Of a stretch of 61,210 bases of DNA, positions 8,373 through 30,139 are shown piece by piece (the first letter of the stretch is position 1; every line of letters starts with the position of its first letter). Location of the stretch: positions 1 through 61,210 of the forward strand of contig JASLXG010000005.1 of the NCBI GenBank assembly GCA_030740435.1. The letters run 5' to 3'. This DNA is from Alphaproteobacteria bacterium (GTDB taxonomy: Bacteria; Pseudomonadota; Alphaproteobacteria; UBA2966). The notes under the pieces were generated by a model that was not told the DNA's origin, made no database searches, and was given only the letters and a program-made list of their open reading frames with translations. A program made the translations under genes and the position numbers.

Positions 8373-8644
8373 ACCATCAAGGGGGAGGGGAAAAAATTGA
8401 AATAACAATAAGATAAACTCCCTCCCCCCTTGTGGGGCAGGGTTGGGGTGGGGGGGTAGCCCTCAGTGAAAAAGCTCGGCCCTGGCCAGCAGCTCGTCGA
8501 GGCCCGGCTCGTCCGGGTTGCGCGGCTTGCCGGGGTGGATGGGAGAGACCTGGCAGGTCTCCGCTTTTCCTTTGATAGTCGCTGGGACCCAGCACAGGGA
8601 CCAGCGGATATTATTGACATTGCCCGACCTGCGTCGTCCAGTCG
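8373..8644. other. Non-coding gap with repeat and a possible gene remnant
   Basis: This gap holds the right half of the split palindrome, a second GC-rich repeat (8418-8456), and a minus-strand open stretch at 8466-8562 reading ETCQVSPIHPGKPRNPDE and then GLDELLARAELFH with a stop. The last has natural-looking composition and could be the C-terminal remnant of a gene lost at the IS boundary, but I do not recognise it. No intact gene is visible. Confidence 0.4.
8418..8456. repeat. GC-rich palindromic intergenic repeat
   Basis: The stretch begins CTCCCTCCCCCCTTGTGGGG and continues as a G/T-rich tail ending in seven G residues. It is similar in composition and layout to the palindrome interrupted by the IS4-type element 30 bp away, and to small repeats scattered between genes in many alphaproteobacteria. 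It could fold into a hairpin in RNA and act as a barrier or terminator, but that is inference. Confidence 0.5.
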
Positions 8645-10532: not shown

Positions 10533-11538
10533 CGCGAAACGACGCGACCAGTGAGGGTAGATCAGCATCGGTACCGGGCCGGTAGCCGAACGCCTCGTAG
10601 GCTTCCTTCTCAAGCTTGGAGTTGAGCAGGCGCAACGGAATGTTGACGGGGCAGACTCGCTCGCATTCACCGCAATCGATGCAACGCCCGGCCAGATGCA
10701 GGGCCCGCACCAGATGATATCCGGCGTTCTCGGAGGTCACGGCCGAGCGTTCGATCCACTTGATGCGGTTGGCCTTCTCCTCGGCGCTGGTGTCCGGGCT
10801 AACGTTAAAGACGATACTGTCGACGACGCACTCCTCGCAATAGCACATGGGGCAGACCGAGCGGCAGGCATAGCAGCGCAGGCAGCGGTCGAACTGGTGC
10901 CGCCAGAATGTCCACGGCGCGTCGCCGAACGCCCGCTCCGCTGCTTCCAGGGCATGGAACGATTCGTCGTAGGTCCGCTCGACAGCCTCTCCGAAAAGGA
11001 TGTCGTTGACCGCCGGCGACGGAGCCCGGCATTCCAGGCAGCGGTCGGCTAGGATCTCGCGGGCCGGGATCTCGATATCGCCGTCGTCGGTGGTGATGCG
11101 GAAGATGTCAGCGCCGGTAAAAGCGGTCGCGTCAGCCGTCCGCCCGTCCAGTCTCTGCGCCAGCTTTCGTTGGTCGATGACACCGGTTCTCTCGCAGGAA
11201 ACGCCAAGGATGCGGACGTCATCGCGGCTGAAATATTTCTCCTGAAGGAGCACGACGATGCCACGGCTGTCGCACCCCTTGGCCACGAGGGCCACCGGTC
11301 GCCGGTCGCCGCCCTCACCCGCTGCGGCCTGTTTCTTGCACTCGTCAACCAGGTAGAGCGCCAGGTTGTGCACGCAGGTGGGATCCCAGGTCAGGTCGTC
11401 CGCGTCTTCGGGCCGCGAGACGAAAGCGGGCGCCGCCATGGGGCCGGCGGTGCTGTCCCGGTAGCCGAGGACGAGTCGGACCTCGCCGCTTTCCAGCAGG
11501 GACCGCGCCTGGTCCCGAATGTCCTGGGGATCGATCAT
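10504..11538 (-). CDS. FlxC-like iron-sulfur subunit with FrhB-type N-terminus
   Basis: This 344-residue protein has an N-terminal half like the beta subunit of F420-reducing hydrogenase/dehydrogenases (VALVAKGCDSRGIVVLLQEK, about 84-103; ILGVSCERTGVID, about 113-125). A cysteine-rich C-terminal half follows: CLECRAP, CLRCYACRSVCPMCYCEEC (about 223-241) and CIDCGECERVCPVNIP (about 293-308). The ATG at 11538 overlaps the flxD stop by 4 bp. It lies between FlxD-like and HydB/FlxB-like genes, the position of FlxC in mirror-image Flx-Hdr operons. The role is electron transfer within the cytoplasmic complex. Whether the N-terminal domain still binds a flavin cannot be seen. Confidence 0.78.
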   Translation of the reverse strand: MIDPQDIRDQARSLLESGEVRLVLGYRDSTAGPMAAPAFVSRPEDADDLTWDPTCVHNLALYLVDECKKQAAAGEGGDRRPVALVAKGCDSRGIVVLLQEKYFSRDDVRILGVSCERTGVIDQRKLAQRLDGRTADATAFTGADIFRITTDDGDIEIPAREILADRCLECRAPSPAVNDILFGEAVERTYDESFHALEAAERAFGDAPWTFWRHQFDRCLRCYACRSVCPMCYCEECVVDSIVFNVSPDTSAEEKANRIKWIERSAVTSENAGYHLVRALHLAGRCIDCGECERVCPVNIPLRLLNSKLEKEAYEAFGYRPGTDADLPSLVASFRDDDPNDFIR

Positions 11539-11990
11539 CGGCGATTCGCCTTTAATTTCTCCTGCGGGCCGAGGGTGCGCAGGTCGTCGACGAACTGCTT
11601 GATCACCTGGGCGAACTTGGCGCCCTCGGCCGCTGAGATCCACGACATGCGAAGCCGTTGCGGTTCCAGCCCGACGAACTCGACCAGCTTGTGAACCAGA
11701 TAGACCTTCCGCCGCGCCTGGTAGTTGCCCTCCATGTAATGACAGTCACCGGGATGGCAACCGGAAACCAGCACGCCGTCTGCGCCCTTGTTGAAGGCGG
11801 ACAGGATGTAGACGGGTGATACGCTGCCCGAACACATGACGGTAATCGGAACGGCATTGGGGGGATATTCCAGGCGCGACACGCCGGCGAGATCGCTGCC
11901 GGCGGACGAGCACCACTTGCACAGAAAGGCGACAATCTTGGGTTCGAACGGTTGGGGCATCGTTTCCGAAACCGTCATTTCCTCTACCAT
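11535..11990 (-). CDS. flxD: MvhD/FlxD-type hydrogenase iron-sulfur subunit
   Basis: This 151-residue protein is of the MvhD/FrhD delta family, the [2Fe-2S] protein that docks to HdrA and feeds it electrons. Characteristic segments are FLCKWCSSAGSDLAG (about 22-36), TVMCSGSVSP (about 50-59) and GVLVSGCHPGDCHYMEGN (about 72-89), which contain the conserved cysteines. Translation may start at the ATG at 11990 or at 11978. It follows hdrA by 9 bp. In methanogens MvhD links the hydrogenase to HdrABC. Here, with no hydrogenase genes, the adjoining Flx genes are the likely electron source. Confidence 0.88.
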   Translation of the reverse strand: MVEEMTVSETMPQPFEPKIVAFLCKWCSSAGSDLAGVSRLEYPPNAVPITVMCSGSVSPVYILSAFNKGADGVLVSGCHPGDCHYMEGNYQARRKVYLVHKLVEFVGLEPQRLRMSWISAAEGAKFAQVIKQFVDDLRTLGPQEKLKANRR

Positions 11991-11999
11991 CCTAGTCCT

Positions 12000-13955
12000 C
12001 TACCACCCTAGGCTAGCGCTGATCATCTCGTGCACCTGAAGGGGCGTGACATTCCTGACCTCGATGGCGGCGCGCAGACAGGTGGCCGAACAGGTGCCGC
12101 AGCCCTCGCAGAGCACTTCGTTCACCTGGGCCTTGCCGTCGACCAGATGGATCGCGTCGTAGGGGCAGGCCTGGACGCACATCTCGCAACCGGTGCAGAG
12201 CGGCATGCGAACCTCGGCTACGGCGGGGCTGTGCGCCAATTCGTCCTGGGACAGCAGACCGATCACCTTGGACGCCGCGGCGCTCGCCTGGGCCACGGTT
12301 TCCGGGACGTCCTTCGGCGACTGGGCGGCGCCGGCTAGGAAGATCCCGGCCGTGACGCTCTCGACCGGTTTCAGCTTGGGATGGGCCTCGGCCAGGAAGC
12401 CGTCTTTGTCGCGGGCGATCTTGAGGATCTTGGCGATCTCGGCGGTGCCCTTGGAGGGCTGCATGGCGAGCGCCAGAACGACCATGTCGGCGTCGATTTC
12501 CACGTTCTGGCCCGACAGCGTGTCGATGCCCAGGACCTTGATCTTGCCGTTCTCCTCGTAGAGCTTGGACACCTTGCCGCGCAGGTAGATGGTGCCGTCC
12601 TTCTCCATGGACCGTTGGACGAACTCCTCGTAGCCCTTACCGCCGGAGCGGATATCGATATAGAAGATGTAGGCTTGGCCGTCGGGCACTTGGTGCTTGT
12701 AGAGCATCGCGTGCTTGGCGGTGTACATGCAGCAGATCTTGGAGCAGTAGGCGCAGTGCTGCTCCGGATCCCGCGAGCCAGCGCATTGGATGAAGACGAT
12801 TTCTTTGGGCACTTTGCGGTCCGACGGGCGCAGGATCTTGCCCCCGGTCCCCCCAGCTGCCGAGCACATACGCTCGAACTGGAGCCCGTCGAGGACATCG
12901 ACGTACTTGCCGCCGCCGTACTCCCCCAATTTGTCCTTGCCGTAGAGATCGAAGCCGGTGGCGACGACGATCGATCCCACCTCCTCGACGATGGTTTCCG
13001 GCTTCAAGTCGTAGTCGATGGCGCCGGGCTCGCAGACCTCGGGCTCGATGCATTTGCCGCAGGCGATGGGATTGAGGCCGAGGCAGGCGTCCTCGTCCAG
13101 CGTATAGGTGGCCGGGATCGCCTGGGCGAAGGGGATGTATATGGCACGCCGACCGGTCATCCCTCCTTCGTATTCGTTGGGGACGACGACCGGGCAAACC
13201 TCGGTGCAGTTGTCGCAGACGGTGCATTTGTCCGGGTCGACGAAGGAGGGCTTGCGCTGGATGGTGACCCGAAAATTACCGACGAAGCCCGACACGTCGG
13301 TCACCTCGCTGTAGGTCAGCAGCCGGATGTTCGGGTTCTTGGACACCTCGACCATTTTCGGCGACAGGATGCACTGGGAGCAATCCAGCGTCGGGAAGGT
13401 CTCCGAGAGCTTGATCATGTTGCCGCCGATGGTCGGCTGCTTCTCCACCAGGATCACCTCGAAGCCGGCGTTGGCCATGTCGATGGCGCTCTGGATTCCG
13501 GCGATGCCGCCGCCGACGACGAGAACCCGGCGGGTGACGGGAATGCCGATGGGGATCAGGGACTGGTTGCGCGTCGCCCGCCGGACGGCGTTGCGCGAGA
13601 TCTTGATCGCCTTTTCGGTCGCCTCGTCCTTGTCGCGGTGGACCCAGCTGCACTGCTCGCGGATGTTGGCGATTTCGCACTGGAACTGGTTGAGCCCCCC
13701 CATTTCCGCGACGTCACGGAAGGTCTTTTCGTGCAAGGTCGGCGAGCAGCATGAAATGACCACCGATTCCAGGCCGTTGTCGCGGATCGCCTCGGCGACC
13801 GCCCGCTGGCCCGGATCGGAACACATGAACACAGCGTCGTCGGCGAAGACGACATCGGCGTCCTCGGCCAGTTCCGCGGCCACCCTCTTGACGTCGAGGT
13901 TGCCGGCGATGTTGGAGCCGCAATGGCAGACGAATACACCGGTGCGTTTTGCCAT
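12000..13955 (-). CDS. hdrA: Heterodisulfide reductase subunit A-like flavoprotein
   Basis: HdrA carries the FAD that performs electron bifurcation in HdrABC complexes. The 651-residue protein has the N-terminal HdrA domain starting FVCHCGSNIAGNLD (about 8-21), then a Rossmann FAD motif RVLVVGGGIAGIQSAID (about 143-159). Next come TLDCSQCILSPKMVEV, an inserted ferredoxin CTVCDNCTEVCP (about 245-256) and a C-terminal ferredoxin pair CTGCEMCVQACP (about 600-611) and CEGCGTCSATC (about 628-638). No selenocysteine codon interrupts the frame. It follows korC by 2 bp and precedes flxD. The neighbours make a bifurcating role with NAD(P)H (through FlxA) and ferredoxin likely; which acceptor HdrBC serves is not known. 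Confidence 0.92.
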   Translation of the reverse strand: MAKRTGVFVCHCGSNIAGNLDVKRVAAELAEDADVVFADDAVFMCSDPGQRAVAEAIRDNGLESVVISCCSPTLHEKTFRDVAEMGGLNQFQCEIANIREQCSWVHRDKDEATEKAIKISRNAVRRATRNQSLIPIGIPVTRRVLVVGGGIAGIQSAIDMANAGFEVILVEKQPTIGGNMIKLSETFPTLDCSQCILSPKMVEVSKNPNIRLLTYSEVTDVSGFVGNFRVTIQRKPSFVDPDKCTVCDNCTEVCPVVVPNEYEGGMTGRRAIYIPFAQAIPATYTLDEDACLGLNPIACGKCIEPEVCEPGAIDYDLKPETIVEEVGSIVVATGFDLYGKDKLGEYGGGKYVDVLDGLQFERMCSAAGGTGGKILRPSDRKVPKEIVFIQCAGSRDPEQHCAYCSKICCMYTAKHAMLYKHQVPDGQAYIFYIDIRSGGKGYEEFVQRSMEKDGTIYLRGKVSKLYEENGKIKVLGIDTLSGQNVEIDADMVVLALAMQPSKGTAEIAKILKIARDKDGFLAEAHPKLKPVESVTAGIFLAGAAQSPKDVPETVAQASAAASKVIGLLSQDELAHSPAVAEVRMPLCTGCEMCVQACPYDAIHLVDGKAQVNEVLCEGCGTCSATCLRAAIEVRNVTPLQVHEMISASLGW

Positions 13956-13957
13956 CC

Positions 13958-14515
13958 TTACCCTCCCGCGCCTTCTACGGCCAAGACCTCGCAGCCGTAG
14001 TCATAACCCTTCTCGAACGCCTTGATGTTGATCTCGAGAAAACGGTCGGGTACCAGGCCGGGCACGGCCTTCTTCATGGCTTCCGGCGAAACGATATCGG
14101 TCACCGCGGTGAAAAACCCCAATGCCACCAGGTTGGCGAAGATCCGGTTGCCCAGTTCTTCGGCGAAGCGGGTCGAGGGAACCGACCGCAACTCGATGTC
14201 GGCCCGGGGCGAGCCCGGCTTGACCAGGTCCTCGTCGATGATGAGGACGCCCTCCTCGCGCAGTTCGGGCTCGTACTTGTTGTAGGCCTCCTGGGAGAGC
14301 GCCATCAGAACGTCGGTTTCCGAGATGTAGGGATAGAGCACGCGTTCGTCGGAGACCACGAGCTGCGAGCTACAGGCGCTGCCGCGTGCCTCGGGTCCGA
14401 AGCTCTGGGTCATGGTGGCGTGTTTGTCGTCGAAGAGCGACAGCGCCTTGCCCATGATCAGGGCGCAGCGGATGACGCCCTGTCCGCCGTATCCGGAAAA
14501 CCGAATATCACTCAT
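13958..14515 (-). CDS. korC: 2-oxoacid:ferredoxin oxidoreductase gamma subunit
   Basis: This is a 185-residue gamma-domain protein. It opens with the typical FSGYGGQGVIRCALIMGKAL (residues 6-25) and has the TMTQSFGPEARGSACSSQLV stretch (about 34-53) seen in 2-oxoglutarate and 2-oxoisovalerate ferredoxin oxidoreductases. Its ATG overlaps the korB stop by 8 bp (ATGAGTGA), which suggests translational coupling and equal synthesis. It belongs to the KorABC enzyme that oxidatively decarboxylates a 2-oxoacid, probably 2-oxoglutarate, to the acyl-CoA while reducing ferredoxin. Confidence 0.88.
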   Translation of the reverse strand: MSDIRFSGYGGQGVIRCALIMGKALSLFDDKHATMTQSFGPEARGSACSSQLVVSDERVLYPYISETDVLMALSQEAYNKYEPELREEGVLIIDEDLVKPGSPRADIELRSVPSTRFAEELGNRIFANLVALGFFTAVTDIVSPEAMKKAVPGLVPDRFLEINIKAFEKGYDYGCEVLAVEGAGG

Positions 14516-15425
14516 CGCCGTCTTCCCGCCGTTTATTGTCCTCCGCCTCGCGCTCGGGGTCGGTCTTGCCGTACAGCTGGTAGTCGTCGCCGATGACGTT
14601 GGCGTAGTGGCTGTTCACGGCATCCAGGTAGGTGGGTTTTTCCTTGTCGACGAACTTGCCCATGACGAGGGGGCCCTGGTAGTCGATGTCCGCGGTCCGG
14701 GTATCGGTGCCGTGCTCGATCTCGCAGGCGTCCTGGTAGTATTGCAGGACGTCGACGCCGTCGCCGAGGCGGTTGCGGCGCGCATAGAGCGTCGCGCAGG
14801 GCGTGACGACCTCGATGAAGGAAAAGCCCTTCTTGACCAGCGCCTCCTCGATCGAACCGGTGATGCGCCGGGCGTGGAGCGACGTCCAACGCGCCACGTA
14901 GGTGGCCCCGCAGGCGTCGGCCAGGAACGGCAGGCTGAAGGGAAATTCGTAATTGCCGTACGGCGTGGTCGAGGCGTTGGCCGTATGGGGTGTCGTCGGC
15001 GTCACCTGGCCGCCGGTCATCCCGTAGGTGAAGTTGTTGATGCAGATAACCAGCAGATCCATGTTGCGCCGCGCCGCGTGGATAAAGTGGTTGCCGCCGA
15101 TTCCCGTGAGGTCGCCGTCGCCGCTGATCACGACCACCTTGAGATCGGGGTTGGCCAGCTTGAGGCCGGTCGCCACCGGAATGGCCCGCCCGTGGGTGGT
15201 GTGGATGGAATCGTAATTGACATAGCCGGCGACCCGGCCCGAGCAGCCGATGCCCGAGACCACGACGATCTTGTCCGGATCGACACTGGACTTCTTGATC
15301 GCTTCGGCGAAGGCGGTTACCACGGTGCCGATGCCGCAGCCCGGACACCAGATGTGCGGCATCCTATCCATGCGCAGGATTTCGGCCATGGGGCTTTCCG
15401 CCGCGAACTGGGTTGAATCGGTCAT
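14508..15425 (-). CDS. korB: 2-oxoacid:ferredoxin oxidoreductase beta (TPP) subunit
   Basis: This 305-residue catalytic subunit binds thiamine diphosphate: WCPGCGIGTV (about 26-35) with a cluster cysteine pair, and the TPP/Mg motif GDGDLTGIGGNHFIHAARRN (about 100-119) completed by INNFTYGMTGGQ. These are hallmarks of 2-oxoglutarate-type KorB. The ATG at 15425 overlaps the korA stop by 4 bp; an upstream extension of the open frame is not protein-like. KorAB supplies reduced ferredoxin for benzoyl-CoA reduction in Thauera-type anaerobes, so its presence near hcrAB is notable. The substrate is inferred from family resemblance and is not proven. Confidence 0.9.
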   Translation of the reverse strand: MTDSTQFAAESPMAEILRMDRMPHIWCPGCGIGTVVTAFAEAIKKSSVDPDKIVVVSGIGCSGRVAGYVNYDSIHTTHGRAIPVATGLKLANPDLKVVVISGDGDLTGIGGNHFIHAARRNMDLLVICINNFTYGMTGGQVTPTTPHTANASTTPYGNYEFPFSLPFLADACGATYVARWTSLHARRITGSIEEALVKKGFSFIEVVTPCATLYARRNRLGDGVDVLQYYQDACEIEHGTDTRTADIDYQGPLVMGKFVDKEKPTYLDAVNSHYANVIGDDYQLYGKTDPEREAEDNKRREDGDE

Positions 15426-16585
15426 TGGCCGGCCTCCTTTATGGCGGTCAGGATGTCTTCGGGATCGTGCACGGCGCCGCCGTAGTGGGGCACGCCAATG
15501 ACGCGGCACTGGCCGGCCGCGCAGCGTTCGACTTCGAGGACCATCTGGCCGACGTTGATCTCGGGCATGACGATCGCCCGCACCCGGCCGGCGATCTCGC
15601 GGATCCTCTTTTCGGCGAACGGCCAAACGGTGACCAGGCGAAGCGAGCCCACCTTGAGACCGGCGGCCCGCGCCAGTAGAACCGCCCGGCTGGCGATCCG
15701 TGACGTGATGCCGTAGGAGACGACGACGATCTCGCTGTCGTCCACCTGATCTTCCTCGAGGCGGATGATAGTGTCGGCGTTGTTTTCGATCTTGTCGATC
15801 AAGTGGCTGACGCATCGCTCGTTCGCCTCGGGGGTGACCATGGGATAACCGCTTTCCTGGTGGGTCAGGCCGGTGATATGGAACCGATAGCCTTCGCCGG
15901 CGCGGACCATCGGCGCTGGCCTGCCGTCGAACCGGAAGGGCTGGTAGTCGTTCTTGGCGCCCTCGTACCAGTTGCGCTCCACCACCTCGATCTCCTCGGC
16001 CGGCGGGATAATGACCTTCTCGTGCATGTGCCCGACGGTTTCGTCGGTCATGATGAAAACCGGCACCCGGTAGGTCTCCGACAGGTTGAAGGCCTGGATC
16101 GCCAGGTCGAAACATTCCTGGGGTGAATCGGGCGACAGCGCAATGATCCGGTAATCGCCGTGGGATCCCCATCGCGCCTGCATCATATCCTGCTGGGCGG
16201 TCAGCGTGGGCAGGCCGGTCGAGGGGCCGGCGCGCTGCACGTCGGCGATCACCAGCGGTGTCTCGGTCATGCAGGCGAGGCCGATGTTCTCCATCATCAG
16301 CGAAAACCCGGGACCCGAAGTCACGGTCATCACCTTCTTCCCACCCCAGGCGGCACCGATGAGGGCGCCAACCGATGCCAGTTCGTCCTCCATCTGGACA
16401 AACATGCCGCCGACATGGGGCGCCCGTTCGGCGAACCGTTCGGCGGACTCGGTCGAGGGGGTGATCGGATATCCGGCGAAGAACCGGCAGCCGGCCGCGA
16501 GCGCCCCTTCGGTGATGGCATGGTCACCGTCCAGGAAATGGGCTCCCTCGAGGACACCTATCGGGTCTGCGGCGGTCTTATGCAA
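15422..16585 (-). CDS. korA: 2-oxoacid:ferredoxin oxidoreductase alpha subunit
   Basis: This is the pyrimidine-domain subunit of the KorABC enzyme (387 residues from the chosen start). Motifs are FFAGYPITPSTESAERFAER, VQMEDELASVGALIGAAWGG and TSGPGFSLMMENIGLA, all near the N-terminus and typical of KorA. I prefer the TTG start at 16585: it follows AGGAG with a 7-nt spacer and overlaps the ferredoxin stop by 8 bp, the same kind of overlap as korB/korC. The ATGs at 16618 and 16615 give a longer, basic leader and have no good ribosome site. Confidence 0.9.
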   Translation of the reverse strand: MHKTAADPIGVLEGAHFLDGDHAITEGALAAGCRFFAGYPITPSTESAERFAERAPHVGGMFVQMEDELASVGALIGAAWGGKKVMTVTSGPGFSLMMENIGLACMTETPLVIADVQRAGPSTGLPTLTAQQDMMQARWGSHGDYRIIALSPDSPQECFDLAIQAFNLSETYRVPVFIMTDETVGHMHEKVIIPPAEEIEVVERNWYEGAKNDYQPFRFDGRPAPMVRAGEGYRFHITGLTHQESGYPMVTPEANERCVSHLIDKIENNADTIIRLEEDQVDDSEIVVVSYGITSRIASRAVLLARAAGLKVGSLRLVTVWPFAEKRIREIAGRVRAIVMPEINVGQMVLEVERCAAGQCRVIGVPHYGGAVHDPEDILTAIKEAGQ

Positions 16586-16850
16586 TGGGTTTCTCCTGTT
16601 CCTCGTCGCCTTCATCATCGTCAATGGTGACGTATATGGCGAACTCCGGGCAGACGATTTCGCAGTAACGGCATTCCCGGCATTCGTCGACGACCTCGAC
16701 CTCGGGCGGATGGTAGCCCTTGGCGTTGAATCCGTGCGACAGCACCAGGACATTCTGGGGGCAGAACTGGACGCAGAAACCGCAGCCCTTGCACCACTCG
16801 TTGTGGATGTGGACCGTCCCCTTTCTTGGTTTTAGATCGCCAAAGAACAT
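16578..16850 (-). CDS. 2x[4Fe-4S] ferredoxin, KorD-like subunit
   Basis: This 90-residue ferredoxin has two cluster motifs, CKGCGFCVQFCP (about 20-31) and CRECRYCEIVCP (about 57-68), and an acidic C-terminus (DDDEGDEEQEKP). It lies directly upstream of korA and corresponds to the delta/ferredoxin subunit of four-subunit 2-oxoacid oxidoreductases. It may be the mobile or bound carrier that joins KorABC to the Hdr/Flx genes. The ATG at 16850 is 10 bp after the hdrB stop. Confidence 0.88.
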   Translation of the reverse strand: MFFGDLKPRKGTVHIHNEWCKGCGFCVQFCPQNVLVLSHGFNAKGYHPPEVEVVDECRECRYCEIVCPEFAIYVTIDDDEGDEEQEKPIA

Positions 16851-16860
16851 TGCCGTCCCC

Positions 16861-17739
16861 TCAGACCAGCCCCTTTTGCGCCAGCACAGGCTTCGGATCG
16901 ATGTGGTGGAGGTCCAGACGCAGCGCCGTTTCCGGGCACCCCAGCGCCAGTGCCATGAGTTGCGTGAAATAGACCACCGGCAGTCCCTCGAAGTCGGGAT
17001 AGAGCCGAAGGGTCTCGGCCTGCCGTCGGTCCAGGTTGAAGGCACAGAGCGGACAGCTGACGGCGACGATCTCGGCGCCTTGGTTGCGGGCGTTCCCCAG
17101 GATCTTGTAAGTGCGCTCGGCGACGATCTCGGGCTTGTCGACGGTGAGATAAGCGCCGCAACACTCGGTCTTGAGAAAGAATGGCACCGGCTCGGCGCCG
17201 AGGGCCACCACCAGGTCTTCCATGATGGCGGGATTTTCGACGTCGTCGAAGGCCACTTCGCGCGGACGCACCAGCAGGCAACCGTAGTAGCTGGCCACCC
17301 GGAGACCGCCCAGCGGTCGCTCCACCTTCTCCTCCAGCTCGTCGAAGCCGACGCGATCACGCAGAAACTCCAGCAGATGGCGGACCTCGACGTCGCCCTG
17401 GTAATCAACCTCTTCCAGGTTCATGAATCCGTTGATGACGTCGAGGCTTTCGGGATCGGAGCGGACACGCTCGTTGGACCGCTTGAGCGTGTTGTAGCAC
17501 ATGGCGCAGCCCGTGGCGAGTTCCTCGGCCCCGGCCTCTTTGGCGCGGATCAGGTTGCGGACCGGGGCCAGGTGATGCATGAGGTCGTCGGTGGCCAGGG
17601 AAAAGACTGTGCCACAGCAGTTCCAGCGCGTGAGTTCCTCGACCTCGACGCCCAGGATCGTCATCGAGGACAAGGTCGAATCCTCGAAGTTCCGGGCATG
17701 GTTCTTGAGCGTGCAGCCTGGGTAATAGCTGATTTTCAT
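16861..17739 (-). CDS. hdrB: Heterodisulfide reductase subunit B-like protein
   Basis: This 292-residue protein has two complete CCG domains, the motifs that hold the noncubane [4Fe-4S] clusters where HdrB reduces disulfides. Domain one is RWNCCGTVFS (about 38-47) with ATGCAMCYNT (about 75-84); domain two is KTECCGAYLT (about 191-200) with AVSCPLCAFN (about 226-235). Both are preceded by a YPGC or YYGC turn. All cysteines needed are present, so an active site on each domain is plausible. HdrB-like subunits also occur in SdhE and methanogen thiol:fumarate reductase, where they pair with a fumarate-reductase flavoprotein, a gene that lies three places upstream here. Confidence 0.92.
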   Translation of the reverse strand: MKISYYPGCTLKNHARNFEDSTLSSMTILGVEVEELTRWNCCGTVFSLATDDLMHHLAPVRNLIRAKEAGAEELATGCAMCYNTLKRSNERVRSDPESLDVINGFMNLEEVDYQGDVEVRHLLEFLRDRVGFDELEEKVERPLGGLRVASYYGCLLVRPREVAFDDVENPAIMEDLVVALGAEPVPFFLKTECCGAYLTVDKPEIVAERTYKILGNARNQGAEIVAVSCPLCAFNLDRRQAETLRLYPDFEGLPVVYFTQLMALALGCPETALRLDLHHIDPKPVLAQKGLV

Positions 17740-17756
17740 CCGCGGTTCGTCTTTCC

Positions 17757-18164
17757 TTACGACGTCAGTTTCCGCATCGCCGAGATCAGCGCGATGGGCG
17801 GCAGTTCCGCCCGGTCGCCGGCTGACAACGCCATCACCCGAAGCTCATCGTGACGGTCTCGCAGCCGCACCAGCCGCAGTGCCTCGATGATCTCGGCGAT
17901 GTTGATGCCCTTCGGACAGCGGCTATTGCAGGTCATGCAGGAAACGCAGGACCAGATGGTCCGGGATTCGATCAGCGGGTCGGTCATGCCCAGTTGGGCC
18001 ATCCGGATGACCTGGTTCGGCAGGATGTCCATGGGCGAGGTCATGGGGCAGCCGGCGGAGCATTTGCCGCACTGGTAGCAGGCGAGAAGGTCCTGGCCGC
18101 TGAGTTCCTCGATTTGACGGACGAGGGCGGCCGACCGGTTGGCGGACGAGATCCGAACCGTCAT
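17757..18164 (-). CDS. hdrC: Heterodisulfide reductase subunit C-like protein
   Basis: This is a 135-residue 2x[4Fe-4S] protein: CYQCGKCSAGCP (about 29-40) and CVSCMTCNSRCP (about 72-83), followed by the usual GINIAEIIEALR helix. HdrC conducts electrons between HdrA and HdrB. The order hdrC-hdrB, with hdrA separated from them by the ferredoxin and kor genes, is unusual. The stop of the rubrerythrin-like gene ends just before this start. Membrane anchors are absent, so the protein is cytoplasmic. Confidence 0.92.
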   Translation of the reverse strand: MTVRISSANRSAALVRQIEELSGQDLLACYQCGKCSAGCPMTSPMDILPNQVIRMAQLGMTDPLIESRTIWSCVSCMTCNSRCPKGINIAEIIEALRLVRLRDRHDELRVMALSAGDRAELPPIALISAMRKLTS

Positions 18165-18165
18165 G

Positions 18166-18702
18166 TCAGTACTTTCCGTCCATCCGGAATTCCGGCTTGT
18201 CGAGCCAGATGCCCACGTTCATCAAACTGTCCGCCTGGGCCTGGAGAAGGTCGTAATGAAACCGCTCCTCGTCGACCAGCCGCTCGGCCAGGGCGCGCAC
18301 CTTGGGGTCCGGCGTCCGGTCCCGAAGCCCCTCGTACAGTCGGATCGCCCGCCGTTCCATGTTCATGGCCAGGCGCAGCGCCTCGGCCTCGTCGACGGAC
18401 TCTAGTTCGCCCCCCCTGGCGGCGATGGCTGCCTCCAGTTGCTCGACCACCGTCGAAGGTGCGTCACCGGCGATGCGCCGCTCCGCGATCTTTTTCCAAT
18501 CGCCGCTCCCGGTGATCGCGGTGAAGATGCGGCCGATTTCGTCGAGATGGCCGACCTCCTCCTCGGCGAGCCGGCGGAACACCTTTTTGCCCGTCTTGCT
18601 GCGGGTCACCGCCGTGGCCCGTTCGTAGAAACGCTGGCCATTGACCTCCAGGTCGATGGCCTCGCGGACCACCTCGACCAGTTGGTCGTCGGTAAGTGTC
18701 AT
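18166..18702 (-). CDS. Rubrerythrin-like ferritin-fold protein
   Basis: This 178-residue all-helical protein has the spaced carboxylate ligands of a diiron four-helix bundle: AIDLEVNGQRFYERA (about 15-29), LAEEEVGHLDEIG (about 45-57), AMNMERRAIRLYEG (about 110-123) and LVDEERFHYDLL (about 141-152). No C-terminal rubredoxin domain is present. The start overlaps the flavoprotein stop by 4 bp (ATGA), so the two are translationally coupled. Within an oxygen-sensitive iron-sulfur operon it probably removes peroxide or oxygen, or it may be a dedicated redox partner. The exact role is not known. Confidence 0.82.
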   Translation of the reverse strand: MTLTDDQLVEVVREAIDLEVNGQRFYERATAVTRSKTGKKVFRRLAEEEVGHLDEIGRIFTAITGSGDWKKIAERRIAGDAPSTVVEQLEAAIAARGGELESVDEAEALRLAMNMERRAIRLYEGLRDRTPDPKVRALAERLVDEERFHYDLLQAQADSLMNVGIWLDKPEFRMDGKY

Positions 18703-20417
18703 GGGCGATCCCCTGCGATATCGGCGTGGACCCTGTTGCGCAGCCCGGAGCTTCCGGGCAGCTTGCCGCCGACCCGCGCCAACTGGCGTTTTTTGACGTC
18801 GTCCGGCGTGTAGGAGGGCAGAATGATCGGCGCCACCAGGTCGGTCTCGATCCCGACCGAAACCAGTTCCTTCTCGTAGGCATCGACGTGGGCCAGGGAC
18901 ATCGAGCCCAGCTTGACCTTGGCGGCGTACTCGCTGGCGTAGCGGCCGGCGCGCCGTCCGAAGACGTTGTAGTCGAGGACCGAGTTTCCCATTAGACGGT
19001 TGCGGCCGTGCAGACCGCCGGTCGCCTCGCCGGCCACGTAGAGGCCGGGTATGGCGGTTTCGCAGTTGGCGTTGATCTCGATGCCGCCGTTCTGGTAGTG
19101 CAGCGTCGGGTAGATCAGCATCGGTTCGGCGGTGATGTCGATGTCGTAGCGGATGAATTGGCGGTACATGGCGGGGAACTGCTTGTTGATAAACCCGGCG
19201 CCGTGGATCATCTCGATGAGGGGCGAATCCAGCCAAACACCGTCTCGGCCGCTGGGGGTCTGGATGCCGTTGCCGTTCTCCCGGCACTCGCGGATGATGG
19301 CCGAGCTTTCCACGTCCCGGGGCTCACGCGGGAACACGAACAGTTCCCCGAACTTGTTCAGCGGCTGGCCACCGACGGCGCGGATCTTCTCGGTGATCAG
19401 GAAGCCGGAGATCTGCTCCGGGAAGGCGGCACCGGTGGGGTGGTACTGGACCGAATCCATGAACAGCAGCGGCGCCCCGGCCCGGTAGGCCATCACCAGG
19501 CCGTCGCCGGTCGCACCGTAGTGGTTGGTGGTATCATAGCCCCGAAGGTGAAGGCGCCCGTAGCCCCCGGTTGCGACGAGCGTGGCTTTGGCCCGAACGG
19601 TGACGAATTCCTCCGTCTCCAGATTGTAGAGCACGGCGCCGGCGCACTGGCCCTTGGCATCCATGATCAGCTCAATCGCCGGCATGAACTCCTGCACCGC
19701 CACCATTTCCGGGTGGTTGCGCACCTCGTCCATCAGGGTGCGCATGATGATGGCGCCCGTATAGTCGCGGCAGGACAGCATCCGTTTGCGCGAGGTGCCG
19801 CCGCCGTGAAGCACCTGCAGGGAGCCGTCCTCGTTCTTGTCCCAAACGACACCCAGGTCCTCCAGCCATTTGACCGTTTCGGCGGCGTCCTCGGTGAGCG
19901 CGCGCACCAGTTCCGGTTTGTTCTCGAAATGGCCGCCGCCGAGGGCGTCGAGGAAATGCCGGGTCGGAGAATCGGTCGGCGAGACGGCAGCTTGCATGCC
20001 GCCCTGCGACATCATCGAATTGGCATCACCCATGCGGAGCTTGGTGGCGATGAGCGATTTGACGCCGGCTTGCAGGGCGACGATGGCGGCCTGACAGCCG
20101 GCGCCGCCGCCGCCGACGATCAGCAGATCGGTTTCCAGATCCGGTTCCCGGAGATCGAACAGGCCCGAGCTTATCCAGGAATGGGCCTCCAGCATGTGGG
20201 CGACCTCGGTGGTCAGGATCTCGCCCTTGTTGGGGCCGACACGAACCGGGCGGCGCGAGTCCTTTTCATAGTCGGGATGGAATTTCCGGAGCACGTCCTC
20301 GCGCTCCGCCGGTCCCATCGGCGGATAGACCGGTTCGCCGGACTTGGCAGGATTCAGCCGTTGGGAACGGGTCCTGACGACCGCCTTCAGCGAGTCCTGC
20401 ATGTAGTCTGGGTACAT
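18699..20417 (-). CDS. Fumarate reductase/succinate dehydrogenase-like flavoprotein, soluble type
   Basis: This 572-residue FAD protein is of the FrdA/SdhA/L-aspartate oxidase family. The FAD Rossmann motif is LLIVGGGGAGCQAAIVA (about 98-114). Catalytic-site elements are present: MDSVQYHPTG, PRDVESSAI, LHYQNGGIEI and GGLHGRNRLMGNSVLDYNVF. The position that carries the covalently bound FAD in SdhA/FrdA (His in SHTxxAQGG) is Asn here (NSMMSQGG), so FAD should be noncovalent, as in L-aspartate oxidase. The ATG at 20417 follows GAGGG and gives the family length. It is paired with the iron-sulfur gene upstream, and no membrane-anchor genes are present. The likely reaction is fumarate or another enoate to its saturated acid, or the reverse; the direction and substrate are open. 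Confidence 0.85.
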   Translation of the reverse strand: MYPDYMQDSLKAVVRTRSQRLNPAKSGEPVYPPMGPAEREDVLRKFHPDYEKDSRRPVRVGPNKGEILTTEVAHMLEAHSWISSGLFDLREPDLETDLLIVGGGGAGCQAAIVALQAGVKSLIATKLRMGDANSMMSQGGMQAAVSPTDSPTRHFLDALGGGHFENKPELVRALTEDAAETVKWLEDLGVVWDKNEDGSLQVLHGGGTSRKRMLSCRDYTGAIIMRTLMDEVRNHPEMVAVQEFMPAIELIMDAKGQCAGAVLYNLETEEFVTVRAKATLVATGGYGRLHLRGYDTTNHYGATGDGLVMAYRAGAPLLFMDSVQYHPTGAAFPEQISGFLITEKIRAVGGQPLNKFGELFVFPREPRDVESSAIIRECRENGNGIQTPSGRDGVWLDSPLIEMIHGAGFINKQFPAMYRQFIRYDIDITAEPMLIYPTLHYQNGGIEINANCETAIPGLYVAGEATGGLHGRNRLMGNSVLDYNVFGRRAGRYASEYAAKVKLGSMSLAHVDAYEKELVSVGIETDLVAPIILPSYTPDDVKKRQLARVGGKLPGSSGLRNRVHADIAGDRP

Positions 20418-20524
20418 GTTCCTACCCTCTTGGGAAAATAGGCACACCGGCATCCGATGATTCCGATGGTTGTGCCCTTTGCGGTTTCGCCGCCGAAGGC
20501 GCCTCGAGTGGCCGTGAACGACGG

Positions 20525-21268
20525 TTATTCCATGTCTCGGTCGTAGTACCTCTTCTTGAGTTCGTCGTGGCTCATGGCCAGTAAGACCTCGTATTCCGCG
20601 TCGTAGTTGCCGCCGCTGATCTCCCCTATCCGTTTGACCAACTCCGGGCTTTCCTTGCGCAGGTACCGCCCGAACAGACGGCGGCCCAGGACGCCGACGT
20701 TGTAGTGGGTGATCTCGGCCGGGCAGCGAAGGACGCACATACCGCAGGACACGCAGTCGAAGGACAGGTCCATCAGCATCTCGATGTCGCCGCGCTTGGC
20801 GGCCTGGATGTAATCCATGACGAGAAGCCCCTGCACGCAGGCCTTGGTGCAGGTGTTGCACTCGACGCATCGGAAGATCACCGGATAGAGCTTCGCCATG
20901 GTCGCCACGTCAGGCGTCAGTTCCTCGATGTCGTAGATCGCCTTCTCGGCCGGGAAGGACGGGATTTGGGCCAGGGACATGCCGTCTTGAACCAGGGTCG
21001 TGCAGGCAAGGCCCATGGCCAGCTTGTAGTCGCCGGGAAGCCGGTAGACAGTGGCGCAGGCGCCGCAAAAGCCTTCACGGCACCCGGCGCCGCGGACAAT
21101 CTGGTATCCCGCATGCTCGATGGCGCCCATGATCGTCGCTTCAGCGGGCACCGAATAGGCCCTGCCCATGATATGCACGGTGATCATGGGATTCGGGGAG
21201 CGGGACTGGGAGCTTTTCTTCGGGGATTTCCGTTGGGACGGTGCTTTCTTAACCTTCGCTTTGACCAT
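20525..21268 (-). CDS. Fumarate-reductase-like iron-sulfur subunit
   Basis: This 247-residue protein carries an N-terminal [2Fe-2S] site (CREGFCGACATVYRL, with a further Cys about 13 residues on) and two cubane motifs, CVECNTCTKAC (about 119-129) and CVSCGMCVLRCP (about 151-162). The second and third sites are both regular ferredoxin-like motifs rather than the [3Fe-4S]-type spacing of SdhB, closer to soluble TfrB-like proteins. A lysine/serine-rich leader (MVKAKVKKAPSQRK...) precedes MITVHIMG. The start may be 21268 or the ATG at 21187. It is the first gene of the block, 107 bp before the flavoprotein, with a 437-bp gap upstream that must hold the main promoter. Confidence 0.82.
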   Translation of the reverse strand: MVKAKVKKAPSQRKSPKKSSQSRSPNPMITVHIMGRAYSVPAEATIMGAIEHAGYQIVRGAGCREGFCGACATVYRLPGDYKLAMGLACTTLVQDGMSLAQIPSFPAEKAIYDIEELTPDVATMAKLYPVIFRCVECNTCTKACVQGLLVMDYIQAAKRGDIEMLMDLSFDCVSCGMCVLRCPAEITHYNVGVLGRRLFGRYLRKESPELVKRIGEISGGNYDAEYEVLLAMSHDELKKRYYDRDME

Positions 21269-21705
21269 TTCGGCATTCTCGCAAGTTTACCACGTGACAC
21301 TCGACACGTTGGAAGCTGAAAGACCTTCCAAGATGACGCCAGACTACCAAGATAACGGCAGACTAACGCACTGAGCCCGCCGACGACAACCCGCCTGGTT
21401 CGGTTCGGGGCAAAAAAAACCGTCATGGCCGATTTTGCTTGGGCGCGACCTTGGATTGAGCTGGCACCCCGCCAGCGCATCGGGTTGCCTTGTTCATGAA
21501 CGCGTTGCGGCGGAAGCTCTTTCTTGCCCGTTCTTGCCCGCGATTTCATGCCCTCGACACCGAGCGCCGCGACCGCTGTGCATCGGCTGGCCGCCGACAA
21601 AACTTATCAAGACCCCCGCCAAATGCGAAAATTGCCGGGAAGGGTCTTCACCCCCAGTCCCCAAATGAACCTGTTTCCGGGCGACATGAGATCGTGATTC
21701 TGTTA
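21269..21705. other. Intergenic region upstream of the Frd/Hdr/Kor/Flx block
   Basis: No convincing gene lies in these 437 bp on either strand. A GCTGGC/GCCAGC hairpin is at 21460-21476, and TTCTTGCCCG is repeated in tandem near 21521-21540. I looked for, and did not find, an FNR-type box or a clear sigma-70 or sigma-54 promoter facing the block. The right edge is the IS5-type element, so part of the control region may have been replaced. Confidence 0.4.
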
Positions 21706-21719
21706 GAGCCTGTTGACAA

Positions 21720-22142
21720 TTAGCGCATGGCAATGATGGTGGCGGCAAGGTTCAAGTTTGCGGCGTAGCTGATGTCGGTCTTGTCGTAGCGGGTGGCGAT
21801 GCCCTGGAATTCCTTGATCTTGGCGAAATAGTTCTCAACCAAATGGCGCCAGTGGTAGATGTCTTTGTCGTAGACGATCTGCCTTATCCGGTCGGCTTTC
21901 GGTGGGATGACGGCGATGGTGCCACGGTGGTCCAGCTCCGCACGCAGCCAGTCGACGTCGAACGCCTTGTCGGCCAGCAAGGCATCGAAGTGAAGCTCTT
22001 GGATCAAGGGGCCGACGCCGATGGTGTCATGGCGTTGACCAGGCAGGAGCACGAAGCGCACCAGATTTCCCAAGGCATCCACCAGCGCGACGATCTTGGT
22101 GGTCAGGCCTCCTTTGGATCGCCCGATGGCCTGATTTTGAGT
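21720..22142 (-). CDS. IS5-family transposase, second frame (orfB)
   Basis: This is the C-terminal catalytic part. The frame reads GRSKGGLTTKIVALVDALGN across the overlap, then LLADKAFDVDWLR with the second Asp and HLVENYFAKIKEFQ with the catalytic Glu. It has no start codon of its own upstream of the conserved region. A -1 slip on GGGGGGG (22143-22149) joins it in frame to orfA, giving one DDE protein. The frame appears intact, so the copy may be active. Confidence 0.75.
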   Translation of the reverse strand, partial: TQNQAIGRSKGGLTTKIVALVDALGNLVRFVLLPGQRHDTIGVGPLIQELHFDALLADKAFDVDWLRAELDHRGTIAVIPPKADRIRQIVYDKDIYHWRHLVENYFAKIKEFQGIATRYDKTDISYAANLNLAATIIAMR

Positions 22143-22477
22143 CCCCCCCTTGCGCCGCTCGCCTTCTGCTGAACGCTGACGATGGTGCTGTCGATGAGGG
22201 CATATTCGAAGTCCGGGTTCTCCGATAACACCTCGAACAGATGCTCAAAGACGCCCTTCTTCGCCCATTGGCGAAAGCGTTGGAAGACGCTGTTCCACTT
22301 GCCCAGAGCCGGCGGCAAGTCGCGCCACGGAGATCCCGTACGAACCCGCCACAATACGGCTTCGAGAAAGAGGCGATTGTCTGCCGCCGTCACACCGCGA
22401 TCCGTGACCTTGCCCGGCAAATGAGGCGAGACCTTTTCCCAAACCTCGTCCCTGATAACCAAACGCTCAGTGATCAT
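22103..22477 (-). CDS. IS5-family transposase, first frame (orfA)
   Basis: This is the N-terminal part of the transposase (DUF4096-like), with RLVIRDEVWEKVSPHLPGK, the WRVRTGSPWRDLPP motif and the first catalytic Asp in ALIDSTIV. The ATG at 22477 (MITERLVI) fits the family; the open frame extends to 22510. The frame ends at 22103, after the G7 run at 22143-22149 where the second frame is entered by a -1 shift. Confidence 0.8.
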   Translation of the reverse strand: MITERLVIRDEVWEKVSPHLPGKVTDRGVTAADNRLFLEAVLWRVRTGSPWRDLPPALGKWNSVFQRFRQWAKKGVFEHLFEVLSENPDFEYALIDSTIVSVQQKASGARGGLKIRPSGDPKEA

Positions 22478-22569
22478 CCAAACCTCCTCGCAAAAGAAAG
22501 CTTGAATCACCTTTCGACGCTTTTGGGAATCCCTTACATGTCAACAGACCCCAGAAGAATCATGATCTT

Positions 22570-23019
22570 TTGGCGTTCCTGAGGTTCGATACGGCTCACC
22601 CGACGGGTGAAAGCGAAGCGGGGATTTCGAGGCAGGATTTCGACCGTCGGCGGAAGCTGGAATTTCCTGGGTCGAGGGTCACCACCGATGCCGGACTTAT
22701 ACCTTTCCGGGAACTCGACGACGCCCTCGCTGTCCTTTCTGATCTGCCGGGGCAGTAGATCGACCGGGTTCACGACTGCCGTCCGCCGAACAAAATCATC
22801 CTCGACATGGACTCCGACGTCAGCCCGACCTACGGCGACCAGGAAGGCACGACCTACAACGGTCACTTCGGCTGCACCTGCTATCATCCGCTTTTCCCAT
22901 TCAACCAGTTCGGCGACCTGGAGCGGCGTCGCCCGCGTTCTGGCAACATGCACAGCGCCGATGGCTGGCGGGACATCCTGGCTCCAGTCGTGGTACGCTA
23001 CACGGAGGAAAGGCCATGA
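22570..23019 (+). pseudogene. IS1380-family transposase remnant
   Basis: Fragments of an IS1380-type transposase lie in one frame. The N-terminal FDRRRKLEFPGSRVTTDAGL is followed by FRELDDALAVLSDLPGQ, then a TAG at 22756-22758 where the family has Trp. After it come IDRVHDCRPPNKIILDMDSD and TYNGHFGCTCYHPLF, ending with SADGWRDILAPVVVRY. Roughly 80 residues are missing after ELDDAL, and the last two thirds of the protein after residue ~150 are absent. It cannot encode an active enzyme. The IS5-type element abuts its upstream side. Confidence 0.82.
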
Positions 23020-23306
23020 GGATACCGGGAGAGGTGTGTCCGGATCACGGGAAATCGGGCCGAATAGGGCCGCCGAGAGCAGCTCTGTGGCCGAAAGCTC
23101 GTCACAACGGGCCAGGGTCTGGGGCATGGTTCCAAAACCGAGCCTGTTCGGCTATCATCGGGGCCGAATTTGGGAGTCACCTGGGGAATGTCGGCTTCAA
23201 GCGGTGATTGGCCAGAGATCGATGCCATCGCCTTTGAATCCTTCAATTGGGTTCGAAAAACCGACAAACCAAGTGATCGGTCCTTTTGCGATTGGGAAAG
23301 CATGAA

Positions 23307-23756
23307 ATGGCGTTCATACAATGGGACGAATCGTTATCGGTTGGCGTGCCGGTTATCGATGGCGAACACAAGAGCCTGATCGACAGTGTGAATAAGCTCC
23401 ACGAGGCCACCGAAAGCTTGAAGCCTCAGAGAACCGTGAGCACGATCCTCGACTCGTTCGTCGATCTGGTGAGCTACCATTTCCGTCGCGAGGAACGCGT
23501 TATGCGGGCGACGGGCTATCCCGACTTGGAGGACCACATGGCCAAGCACCGGGAGTTCGAAACCTACCTCCTTGCCAACCGGCATCCGTCCAAGGGGAAG
23601 GCGCGGCCGCCCAGCGACCGGGACGCCGTCAACCACATCAAACAGTGGCTTGTCGACCACATCCGCAACGATGACAAGCTGTACGCACCTTATACTGGCG
23701 ACAATCCGGCCGTGGTCACCGCCGTCTACGAGACCGCCGTCTACGAGGACGTTTGA
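23307..23756 (+). CDS. Bacteriohemerythrin
   Basis: This 149-residue single-domain hemerythrin binds O2 at a diiron site. The N-terminus is diagnostic: IQWDESLSVGVPVIDGEHKS. The ligands can be placed: His in DGEHKSL, H-x3-E in YHFRREE, HxxxH in EDHMAKH, and H-x4-D in VDHIRNDDKLY. The ATG at 23307 is used; seven further in-frame codons upstream are not conserved in type. The last residues (ETAVYEDV) come from a short tandem duplication in the DNA. It stands alone between an IS1380 remnant and a truncated reductase gene; its role is probably oxygen storage or sensing beside the oxygen-sensitive block. Confidence 0.9.
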   Translation: MAFIQWDESLSVGVPVIDGEHKSLIDSVNKLHEATESLKPQRTVSTILDSFVDLVSYHFRREERVMRATGYPDLEDHMAKHREFETYLLANRHPSKGKARPPSDRDAVNHIKQWLVDHIRNDDKLYAPYTGDNPAVVTAVYETAVYEDV

Positions 23757-23759
23757 CGT

Positions 23760-24116
23760 TTACGAGGACGTTTTCGCCCAACAGGTCGCGGAAAAAGGAG
23801 ACCCGAAGGCATCGACCGAGTTGGGATTCTCTAGGAACTTGCCGTAGAGCTCGGCGATGGTCAACGGGATGCGCTCGCCGCCCTCATGCAGGATGACGAT
23901 GACGAACTGGCCCGGCCTGGCCGCCCGCGCCATCTGGGGGTGGTGAAATTCAAGCAAATAGGTGACGTCCGAGAAATCCTGGCGCGCCACGATCTCAAAC
24001 AGCGACCTCTGGGCCTCGCCGTCCCGGCCCCGCCCGCCTTTGGCACCCGAAACGTCAACTGGCGTCGCTACTTTGGCATCGGCCATGCCGCGCATCTCCG
24101 CCAATACCAATTCCAC
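23760..24116 (-). pseudogene. Truncated NfnA/SudB-like ferredoxin:NADP oxidoreductase subunit
   Basis: Only the start of the FAD-binding domain remains: LFEIVARQDFSDVTYLLEF, RAARPGQFVIVILHEGGERI and PLTIAE, which is the opening pattern of NfnA/SudB-type NADH-dependent ferredoxin:NADP oxidoreductase subunits. After LTIAE the frame runs into unrelated sequence and stops at 23760. The FAD/NAD half and the partner NfnB gene are missing. It is a broken relic of another electron-bifurcating enzyme, perhaps once part of the nearby module. Confidence 0.7.
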
Positions 24117-24251
24117 AATTTCTCTGTGGATTCTTTCGAGATAATCCGATTTCCCAGCGGAATCAAGTGGGTAAACGAATAATTCGGCGCCATTCCACCC
24201 CTGGTGCGAAAGAGAGCCGGCCGCTTCGCGTGATGATTACTTCACCCGCCC

Positions 24252-25001
24252 TCACTTCATCACCACGCCGCCGTCGACGACGATGGTCTGGCCGGTGATA
24301 AAGCTGGCCAGGTCGCTGGCCAGGAAGGCGATCAGGCCGGCCACTTCTTCAGGCCGGCCGAAGCGTTTCAGCGGGATGGTTTTGACTAGGCGATCGCCGT
24401 GCTTGGCGATGAACTCGGCCGGCATGGGGGTGTCGATGATGCCCGGGGCCACGGCGTTGACCAGCACCTCGGGCGCCCAGGCCTGGGCCAGCGAGCGCAC
24501 GATGCCGAAAAGCCCGGCCTTGGCCGCGGCGTAGGACGCGAAGTGCCGATTGCCCTGTTCGCCGGCGACGGAGTTGGCGAAGATCAGCCGGCCCGGCCGC
24601 TGGCCATTGGTCCGCGCCCGGAAGGCCAGGGCGACGTCGTAGGCACTGGTCAGGTTGACGGCGATGGCGCGGTCCCAAAGCTCCCGGTTGTCGGGCTCCA
24701 GGCGGTCGAGCTCGAAAATTCCGGCCAGGTGGACCAGCACGTCGATGGGCCCGTCGGCGGCGTCCAGGGCCTCGGCACAAGCTTCTGGAGAATGCAGCGC
24801 CGAGGTGTGGGTCGAGAGGTTTTCGTGGCCCTTGAAGTGGGCCACCGCCGCCTCCAGCCCCTCGGGCCGGACGTCGATGAGGTCGACCAGGGCGCCACCG
24901 GCCAGGAACACCTCGGCCGAGGCCAGCGCAATGCCACCGGCGCCGCCGGTCAGCACCACGCGGCGGTCCTTGAAGTCGAACCGGTTTTTCATCTTATTCA
25001 C
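24252..25001 (-). CDS. Short-chain dehydrogenase/reductase (SDR)
   Basis: This is a 249-residue classical SDR. The nucleotide-binding loop is VLTGGAGGIALA (about 16-27), the NAG-like strand is LVHLAGIFEL, the catalytic Ser is in ANSVAGEQG and YxxxK is in ASYAAAKAG. The C-terminus TGQTIVVDGGVVMK is typical. The acidic residue after the second strand (LIDVRPEG) favours NAD(H). The GTG at 25001 overlaps the pentapeptide gene stop by 4 bp; an ATG at 24992 is an alternative. The substrate is unknown. It probably follows the mutase/oxidoreductase operon, with the pentapeptide gene in between. Confidence 0.87.
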   Translation of the reverse strand: MNKMKNRFDFKDRRVVLTGGAGGIALASAEVFLAGGALVDLIDVRPEGLEAAVAHFKGHENLSTHTSALHSPEACAEALDAADGPIDVLVHLAGIFELDRLEPDNRELWDRAIAVNLTSAYDVALAFRARTNGQRPGRLIFANSVAGEQGNRHFASYAAAKAGLFGIVRSLAQAWAPEVLVNAVAPGIIDTPMPAEFIAKHGDRLVKTIPLKRFGRPEEVAGLIAFLASDLASFITGQTIVVDGGVVMK

Positions 25002-29723: not shown

Positions 29724-30139
29724 GGCGATCCCCCTGCCCGGGCCTGCAGGAAATCGAGAATCTCCCGCGAACGCGTGTTGCTGTCGAAGATGCCGTCGAT
29801 GCCCAGATCCGCGAGTGCCGCGAAGTCCTGACGCGGGATGACGCCGCCGATCATCAGCGTCACCTCGGTCATCTCGCGTTCAGCCAGGCCTTCGACCATC
29901 TCGCGGCAGTATGGAACATGGGCGCCGCCAAGGAAACTCAGGCCAATGACGTCGACGTCTTCCTCCAGCGCCGCCTCGATCACCTGGTCGACGGTGAGGT
30001 ACTTGCCGAGATAAATGACCTCGTGGCCGGCCTCGCGAAACAGCGAGGCCAGCACCTTGATGCCGCGGTCGTGGCCGTCGAAGCCCACCTTGGCCAGCAG
30101 GATGCGCCGGGCATCGGCAATCTCAGCCGCCGCGGACAT
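29720..30139 (-). CDS. Cobalamin-binding small subunit of acyl-CoA mutase
   Basis: This 139-residue B12-binding domain is like the small subunits of isobutyryl-CoA, 2-hydroxyisobutyryl-CoA and similar two-part mutases. The DxHxxG motif is DGHDRG (residues 21-26), where His23 would be the lower cobalt ligand. SFLGGAH (about 68-74) and LMIGGVIP (about 94-101) complete the SxL and GG signatures. The ATG at 30139 shares its A with the large-subunit TGA. A TTG one codon earlier is less likely. It forms one enzyme with the upstream large subunit. Confidence 0.9.
   Translation of the reverse strand: MSAAAEIADARRILLAKVGFDGHDRGIKVLASLFREAGHEVIYLGKYLTVDQVIEAALEEDVDVIGLSFLGGAHVPYCREMVEGLAEREMTEVTLMIGGVIPRQDFAALADLGIDGIFDSNTRSREILDFLQARAGGSP

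Follow-up and report, generated by a model that had tools for sequence, protein, structure and literature searches.

The window analysed here is a stretch of 61,210 nucleotides of contig JASLXG010000005.1 from an alphaproteobacterium of the UBA2966 lineage, and the system in question is an operon of 14 intact minus-strand genes, running from position 21268 to 8645 in the order tfrBA-rbr-hdrCB-korDABC-hdrA-flxDCBA, most of which overlap or nearly touch (assignments by Pfam and NCBIfam matches). The initial annotation had singled out 18699-21268 as a fumarate-reductase-like flavoprotein with its iron-sulfur partner, and these limits hold: the tfrA-like gene (572 residues, ATG at 20417) occupies 18699-20417 and the tfrB-like gene (247 residues) 20525-21268. 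The next electron-transfer genes are, as had been stated, hdrC (17757-18164) and hdrB (16861-17739), with a rubrerythrin-like gene (rbr, 18166-18702, Pfam PF02915) in between, whose start overlaps the tfrA stop and which the betaproteobacterial operons described below also have. The operon then continues, a feature unmentioned in that annotation, through a 2-oxoacid:ferredoxin oxidoreductase, consisting of korD (ferredoxin-type subunit, 16578-16880, a match to the 2-oxoglutarate ferredoxin oxidoreductase delta profile below its cut-off), korA (alpha, 15422-16666, NF006412 above cut-off), korB (beta, 14508-15425, profile match) and korC (gamma, 13958-14515, profile match). It ends with hdrA (12000-13955), whose HdrA2-like flavoprotein (NF040770, 783 bits; most cysteines invariant in relatives) is the candidate bifurcation site, and with flxD/mvhD (11535-11990, PF02662), flxC (10504-11538, a 4Fe-4S protein assigned by its position, Fer4 domains and likeness to the genes of relatives), flxB (9459-10535, a HydB/AsrA-like 4Fe-4S protein by profile matches) and flxA (8645-9463, an NAD(P)H-binding flavin adenine dinucleotide (FAD) subunit matching PF00175 and PF10418). 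None of the 14 genes matched a membrane anchor family among the Pfam and NCBIfam profiles, in agreement with the absence of an anchor noted before.

To map the active site of TfrA, the protein was aligned to Escherichia coli FrdA, numbered as in the literature with the initiator methionine not counted. His44 of FrdA, which binds FAD covalently, corresponds to Asn133, as had been read from the sequence alone, and the dicarboxylate residues His232, Thr244, Glu245, Arg287, His355 and Arg390 correspond to His326, Thr342, Glu343, Arg367, His440 and Arg474, so that the full catalytic set of FrdA is kept. Asn133 and all six catalytic residues are invariant across 47 orthologues, which makes the asparagine a property of the family and no accident. 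Since complex II enzymes that lose the covalent FAD bond no longer oxidise succinate and retain fumarate reduction (PMC2680327), this replacement fits a one-way fumarate reductase. Two further features had escaped the initial annotation: the alignment reveals an N-terminal extension of about 93 residues, common to the orthologues, and the C-terminal domain of succinate dehydrogenases and fumarate reductases is missing, with no Succ_DH_flav_C domain found by Pfam and most of the C-terminal part of FrdA unmatched in the alignment. Structure prediction, proposed as a check, was carried out with AlphaFold from 47 sequences and gave a TfrA model with a predicted local distance difference test (pLDDT) score of 86, which was used in place of a poor earlier model from 11 sequences (pLDDT 66) that was set aside. 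The solved structures closest to it by fold are fumarate reductases, a likeness of a predicted model that, taken alone, shows no function.

The cofactor ligands of the partner proteins are equally conserved. TfrB has the plant-type [2Fe-2S] site (C63, C68, C71, C89) and the two regular CxxCxxCxxxC [4Fe-4S] motifs (C134-C144 and C172-C182) that had been ascribed to it, and all 12 cysteines are invariant in 24 sequences, at every filled alignment column. With the same scope, the eight cluster cysteines of the two [4Fe-4S] motifs of HdrC are invariant, as are, in 20 sequences, the ten cysteines of the two intact CCG domains of HdrB (non-cubane [4Fe-4S] sites).

Among the named families of NCBIfam, the best match of the flavoprotein is thiol:fumarate reductase TfrA (338 bits against a cut-off of 718), which supports the earlier suggestion of a putatively soluble, Hdr-linked enzyme of the fumarate reductase type recalling that of methanogens. 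Placement among the L-aspartate oxidases, named beforehand as grounds for dropping that suggestion, does not apply: the NadB profile reaches 269 bits (cut-off 453), the L-aspartate oxidase marker Glu121 aligns with Gly205, and in the tree the flavoprotein branches apart from E. coli NadB, with long branches, and from the FrdA/SdhA references. The AprA profile is absent among the 25 best NCBIfam matches listed for the flavoprotein, and the tree contains no AprA; it was likewise built without tubeworm symbiont, methanogen and Hydrogenobacter sequences, methanogen TfrA being represented by the NCBIfam profile only. Within the tree the protein falls inside a group of betaproteobacterial TfrA proteins (support 100/99; 88/65 for the exact sister position), to which it is 72-75% identical (Gallionella, Hydrogenophilales and Sulfurisoma; loci L065-L069 and L072). 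The other owners that a phylum-wide search found belong to another class of the same phylum. A scan of genome contigs yielded 587 relatives, the best 80 of which come from many phyla, including archaea, and mostly have hdr genes adjoining tfrAB. Six loci (L109, L125, L131, L136, L137 and L143) have a second TfrA paralogue, 27-34% identical, downstream of kor genes. A more distant TfrBA-like pair (41% identical) is encoded on a plasmid of the alphaproteobacterium Pseudoroseomonas cervicalis (L177, 8177-11780), where it is followed by a NuoF-like NADH-binding protein with no Hdr genes, possibly an NADH-linked variant.

The genes that surround these relatives bear on the substrate. A second clade has tfrBA-sucCD-korAB in 18 of 18 fetched loci (one stretch ends before tfrB), in hosts that mostly have ATP-citrate lyase matches, and several deltaproteobacterial loci read flxCBA-tfrBA-sucCD-kor. 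A FumA-like gene lies in 14 of the 81 stretches around homologues, a frequency with no background rate to compare, and in the cultivated fermenter Ilyobacter polytropus (pILYOP01, L178) aspartate ammonia-lyase heads an aspA-hdrBCA-flxDCBA-tfrBA-aspartate aminotransferase cluster. Since fumarase and aspartase yield fumarate, and sucCD and kor consume succinate, the substrate is most simply taken to be fumarate.

Comparison with known systems indicates that the operon is a Flx-Hdr-linked TfrAB module of a type already published, judging from its genes, and not a new kind of system. Tubeworm symbionts (Escarpia, Riftia) and Thioflavicoccus mobilis have korABCD and tfrAB set among flxABCD-hdrABC, together with rbr (Rubin-Blum 2019, PMC6315080), and direct electron delivery was proposed for that cluster (PMC6315080). 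The gene set is the same, including rubrerythrin, with kor genes within the hdr genes, whereas the window has no ATP-citrate lyase, aconitase or idh alongside; this likeness is by published gene content, not sequence. In Gallionella and Hydrogenophilales metagenome-assembled genomes (MAGs), which hold the copies nearest in the tree, the order tfrB-tfrA-rbr-hdrC-hdrB-korDABC-hdrA-flxDCB is identical to that of the window. These copies differ in that, in the two betaproteobacterial genomes checked (L069 of G455 and L077 of G458), where flxA comes next, a type-II ATP-citrate lyase pair lies on the operon's own contig. The pair consists of one protein with Citrate_bind/ATP-grasp domains and another, of 904 residues, with a Succ_CoA_lig domain; it directly follows hdrA-flxCBA in one genome, and the window operon stops at flxA, where these lyase genes begin in the relative. 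The operon of the succinate producer Pseudoclostridium thermosuccinogenes, proposed to bifurcate and about 4-fold up in transcript under CO2 limitation (PMC7282089), likewise combines Flx-Hdr and fumarate reductase with a proposed ferredoxin coupling; it differs in including fumarase, in having no kor named and in its fermenting Gram-positive owner. Methanogen TfrAB shares the best NCBIfam match, the lack of a membrane anchor and a CCG-domain partner, but its TfrB carries a fused HdrB-like half (HdrB matches positions 262-465 of the 488 in profile NF004898), whereas HdrB is separate in the window. The Wolinella 8-methylmenaquinol:fumarate reductase MfrABE/SdhABE has non-covalent FAD and an HdrB-like third subunit and differs in being periplasmic and quinol-linked (PMC2680327), while TfrAB of the window stands within a Flx-Hdr-Kor operon. 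The expectation that such an enzyme would be new therefore fails for the system, which has been published from gammaproteobacteria (PMC6315080 and PMC11636981) and in similar form from Pseudoclostridium (PMC7282089); it stands for the setting alone, since an occurrence in this class, and in a host where no ATP-citrate lyase is detectable, looks new.

Taken together, the gene content makes it probable that the product of the operon is a Flx-Hdr-Kor-Tfr module of the cytoplasm that reduces fumarate with NADH and couples this to the reduction of ferredoxin. Complex formation, the electron path, bifurcation and direction are what we infer from features seen directly, namely the genes, the cofactor ligands, the catalytic residues, the order common with published clusters and the recent acquisition of the block. 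NAD(P)H would hand a hydride to FlxA, and the electron pairs would be split at the flavin of HdrA. The high-potential electrons would pass through HdrC and HdrB to the clusters of TfrB (two [4Fe-4S] and one [2Fe-2S]) and on to the non-covalently bound FAD of TfrA; there, a standard fumarate reductase site would turn fumarate into succinate. The low-potential electrons would reduce ferredoxin, which KorABCD may use, or supply, in the interconversion of succinyl-CoA plus CO2 and 2-oxoglutarate. If E0' is taken as about +30 mV (fumarate), -320 mV (NADH) and -450 mV (ferredoxin), the reaction 2 NADH + fumarate + 2 Fd(ox) -> 2 NAD+ + succinate + 2 Fd(red) releases some 40 kJ/mol.

Several points weigh against this interpretation. 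We know of no activity for any purified member of the family, and the flavoprotein scores under the curated cut-off of every named flavoprotein family in NCBIfam. In the alignment Gly205 takes the place of FrdA Phe116 in the pocket, and the substrate range could differ. In Endoriftia the cluster is co-expressed like an operon with the exception of tfrAB (PMC11636981). Finally, the intact CCG domains of HdrB leave room for a disulfide substrate rather than direct electron transfer. In the corresponding alternative, which we consider improbable, HdrB would reduce a protein disulfide such as that of DsrC and TfrAB would act as a thiol:fumarate reductase using the resulting thiol. Methanogen Tfr uses thiols, a DsrC-like carrier is one of the published options (PMC11636981) and the host has a DsrC homologue; nevertheless, TfrB of the window does not have the HdrB-like half of its methanogen counterpart, and dsrC lies outside the operon and is also present in family members without it.

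Oxidative running, in which KorABCD would oxidise 2-oxoglutarate and Flx-Hdr would reoxidise ferredoxin with NAD, leaving TfrAB idle or a minor sink, is also rather unlikely. Hdr complexes can be reversible, and the host pairs korAB with benzoyl-CoA reductase genes: one cluster (G000:C78; L165:3299-11840) holds class I bcrABC, above cut-off, 6-oxocyclohex-1-ene-1-carbonyl-CoA hydratase and a native korAB. Kor beside benzoyl-CoA reductase is a known oxidative use of Kor. Against this direction stand the non-covalent FAD, which disfavours succinate oxidation (PMC2680327), and the fact that relatives have tfrAB linked to genes for succinyl-CoA synthetase and Kor, which points to the reductive one. 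The host has, besides, a second benzoyl-CoA reductase-like set on C179 (L166) and a PadG-like phenylglyoxylate dehydrogenase alpha subunit on C201 (L168).

That the operon serves an autotrophic reverse tricarboxylic acid (TCA) cycle in the host, as in tubeworm symbionts, would agree with its occurrence in published hosts of that cycle (PMC6315080) and with the lyase genes on the operon contig in the two betaproteobacterial genomes, and a citrate-synthase-based reverse cycle is compatible with the genomic data. On the other side, profile PF16114 found no ATP-citrate lyase in the host (98.6% complete) or in its congener, a result from one profile and two MAGs in a search that matched 20 of 26 genomes, and RuBisCO gave no match in the host or, likewise, in the less complete congener. 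With neither enzyme detected, the canonical cycle is unlikely from the gene content, and autotrophic service of any such cycle quite improbable. Given the missing lyase, the putative bifurcating module is more likely to help this host balance its redox state anaerobically and provide ferredoxin than to serve the reverse TCA cycle. Nitrogenase was considered as a ferredoxin user; no NifH-like match was found in the host beyond short P-loop hits, and the congener agrees. Reduction of an enoate, or of some other compound with a C=C bond, which had been offered as an alternative to fumarate, is very unlikely: the FAD_binding_2 fold is also that of urocanate reductase and ketosteroid dehydrogenases and the pocket has Gly at the Phe116 position, but the invariant dicarboxylate-binding His/Thr/Glu/Arg set speaks against it and the neighbouring genes, which make fumarate or consume succinate, lend it no support.

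The operon points to acquisition by recent transfer. One congener, G001, carries it, and the block 8373-24900 is 99.3% identical between the two (113 differences in 16,328 bp compared), with 36 synonymous and 13 non-synonymous codon differences in the operon, whereas the shared flank to the right of 24.9 kb is only about 82% identical, the drop falling inside a short-chain dehydrogenase/reductase gene. The block also departs in composition from the rest of the contig (guanine-cytosine content 63.6% versus about 66%; tetranucleotide correlation 0.92-0.93 versus 0.99), and the contrast in identity and composition suggests that the transfer was recent and involved a homologous crossover at the right-hand side. 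The left end of the operon is abutted by an IS4-like element on the plus strand (6885-8372, DDE_Tnp_1) with terminal inverted repeats CTAAAGTATGCACACATC / GATGTGTGCATACCTTAG, which G001 lacks at the corresponding point. An IS4/IS5-type insertion sequence on the minus strand (21707-22551, ends approximate; DUF4096) lies within the block in both congeners, the G001 copy being 96.6% identical. A class-wide search, in which the three top candidates of each genome were scored, gave a match at E<=1e-100 in the host alone among 385 sampled genomes, with no close relative in the other 384. A binning error was rejected, as in G001 the 99%-identical block continues into a collinear flank of only about 82% identity, and so was a plasmid origin, the nearest plasmid homologues being at most 54% identical.

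It is plausible, on genomic grounds, that the operon supplies ferredoxin to the benzoyl-CoA reductase of the host. The fuller scenario, in which an operon of the reverse TCA type was cut from its ATP-citrate lyase genes, spread recently between species and was reused for fumarate-driven, NADH-dependent bifurcation feeding the ATP-dependent benzoyl-CoA reductase of an anaerobic aromatic degrader, is put forward tentatively and remains doubtful. If ferredoxin were indeed supplied to benzoyl-CoA reductase in this way, facultative anaerobes would have a second means, in addition to oxidising 2-oxoglutarate, of meeting the cost of dearomatisation. More broadly, the data suggest that the putative bifurcating fumarate reductase module of reverse TCA bacteria moves as a unit, crosses classes and can separate from the usual CO2-fixation enzyme, and the collected gene orders (sucCD-kor, fumarase, aspartase) make the fumarate assignment of a large uncharacterised flavoprotein family directly testable.

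The transferred block contains two other genes of note. A short minus-strand ORF at 23760-24236 resembles, by eye only, a fragment of a SudB/dihydroorotate-dehydrogenase-type FAD/NAD-binding protein and is probably a broken gene; it had no protein-level match in the loci of relatives, where the tblastx rows resemble chance fragments. A hemerythrin gene (23304-23753) adjoins the operon. Elsewhere in the window, the acyl-CoA mutase large subunit at 30139-31818 has 16 matches in the host genome (G000) and 19 in G001, an unusually large number of B12-dependent mutase homologues.

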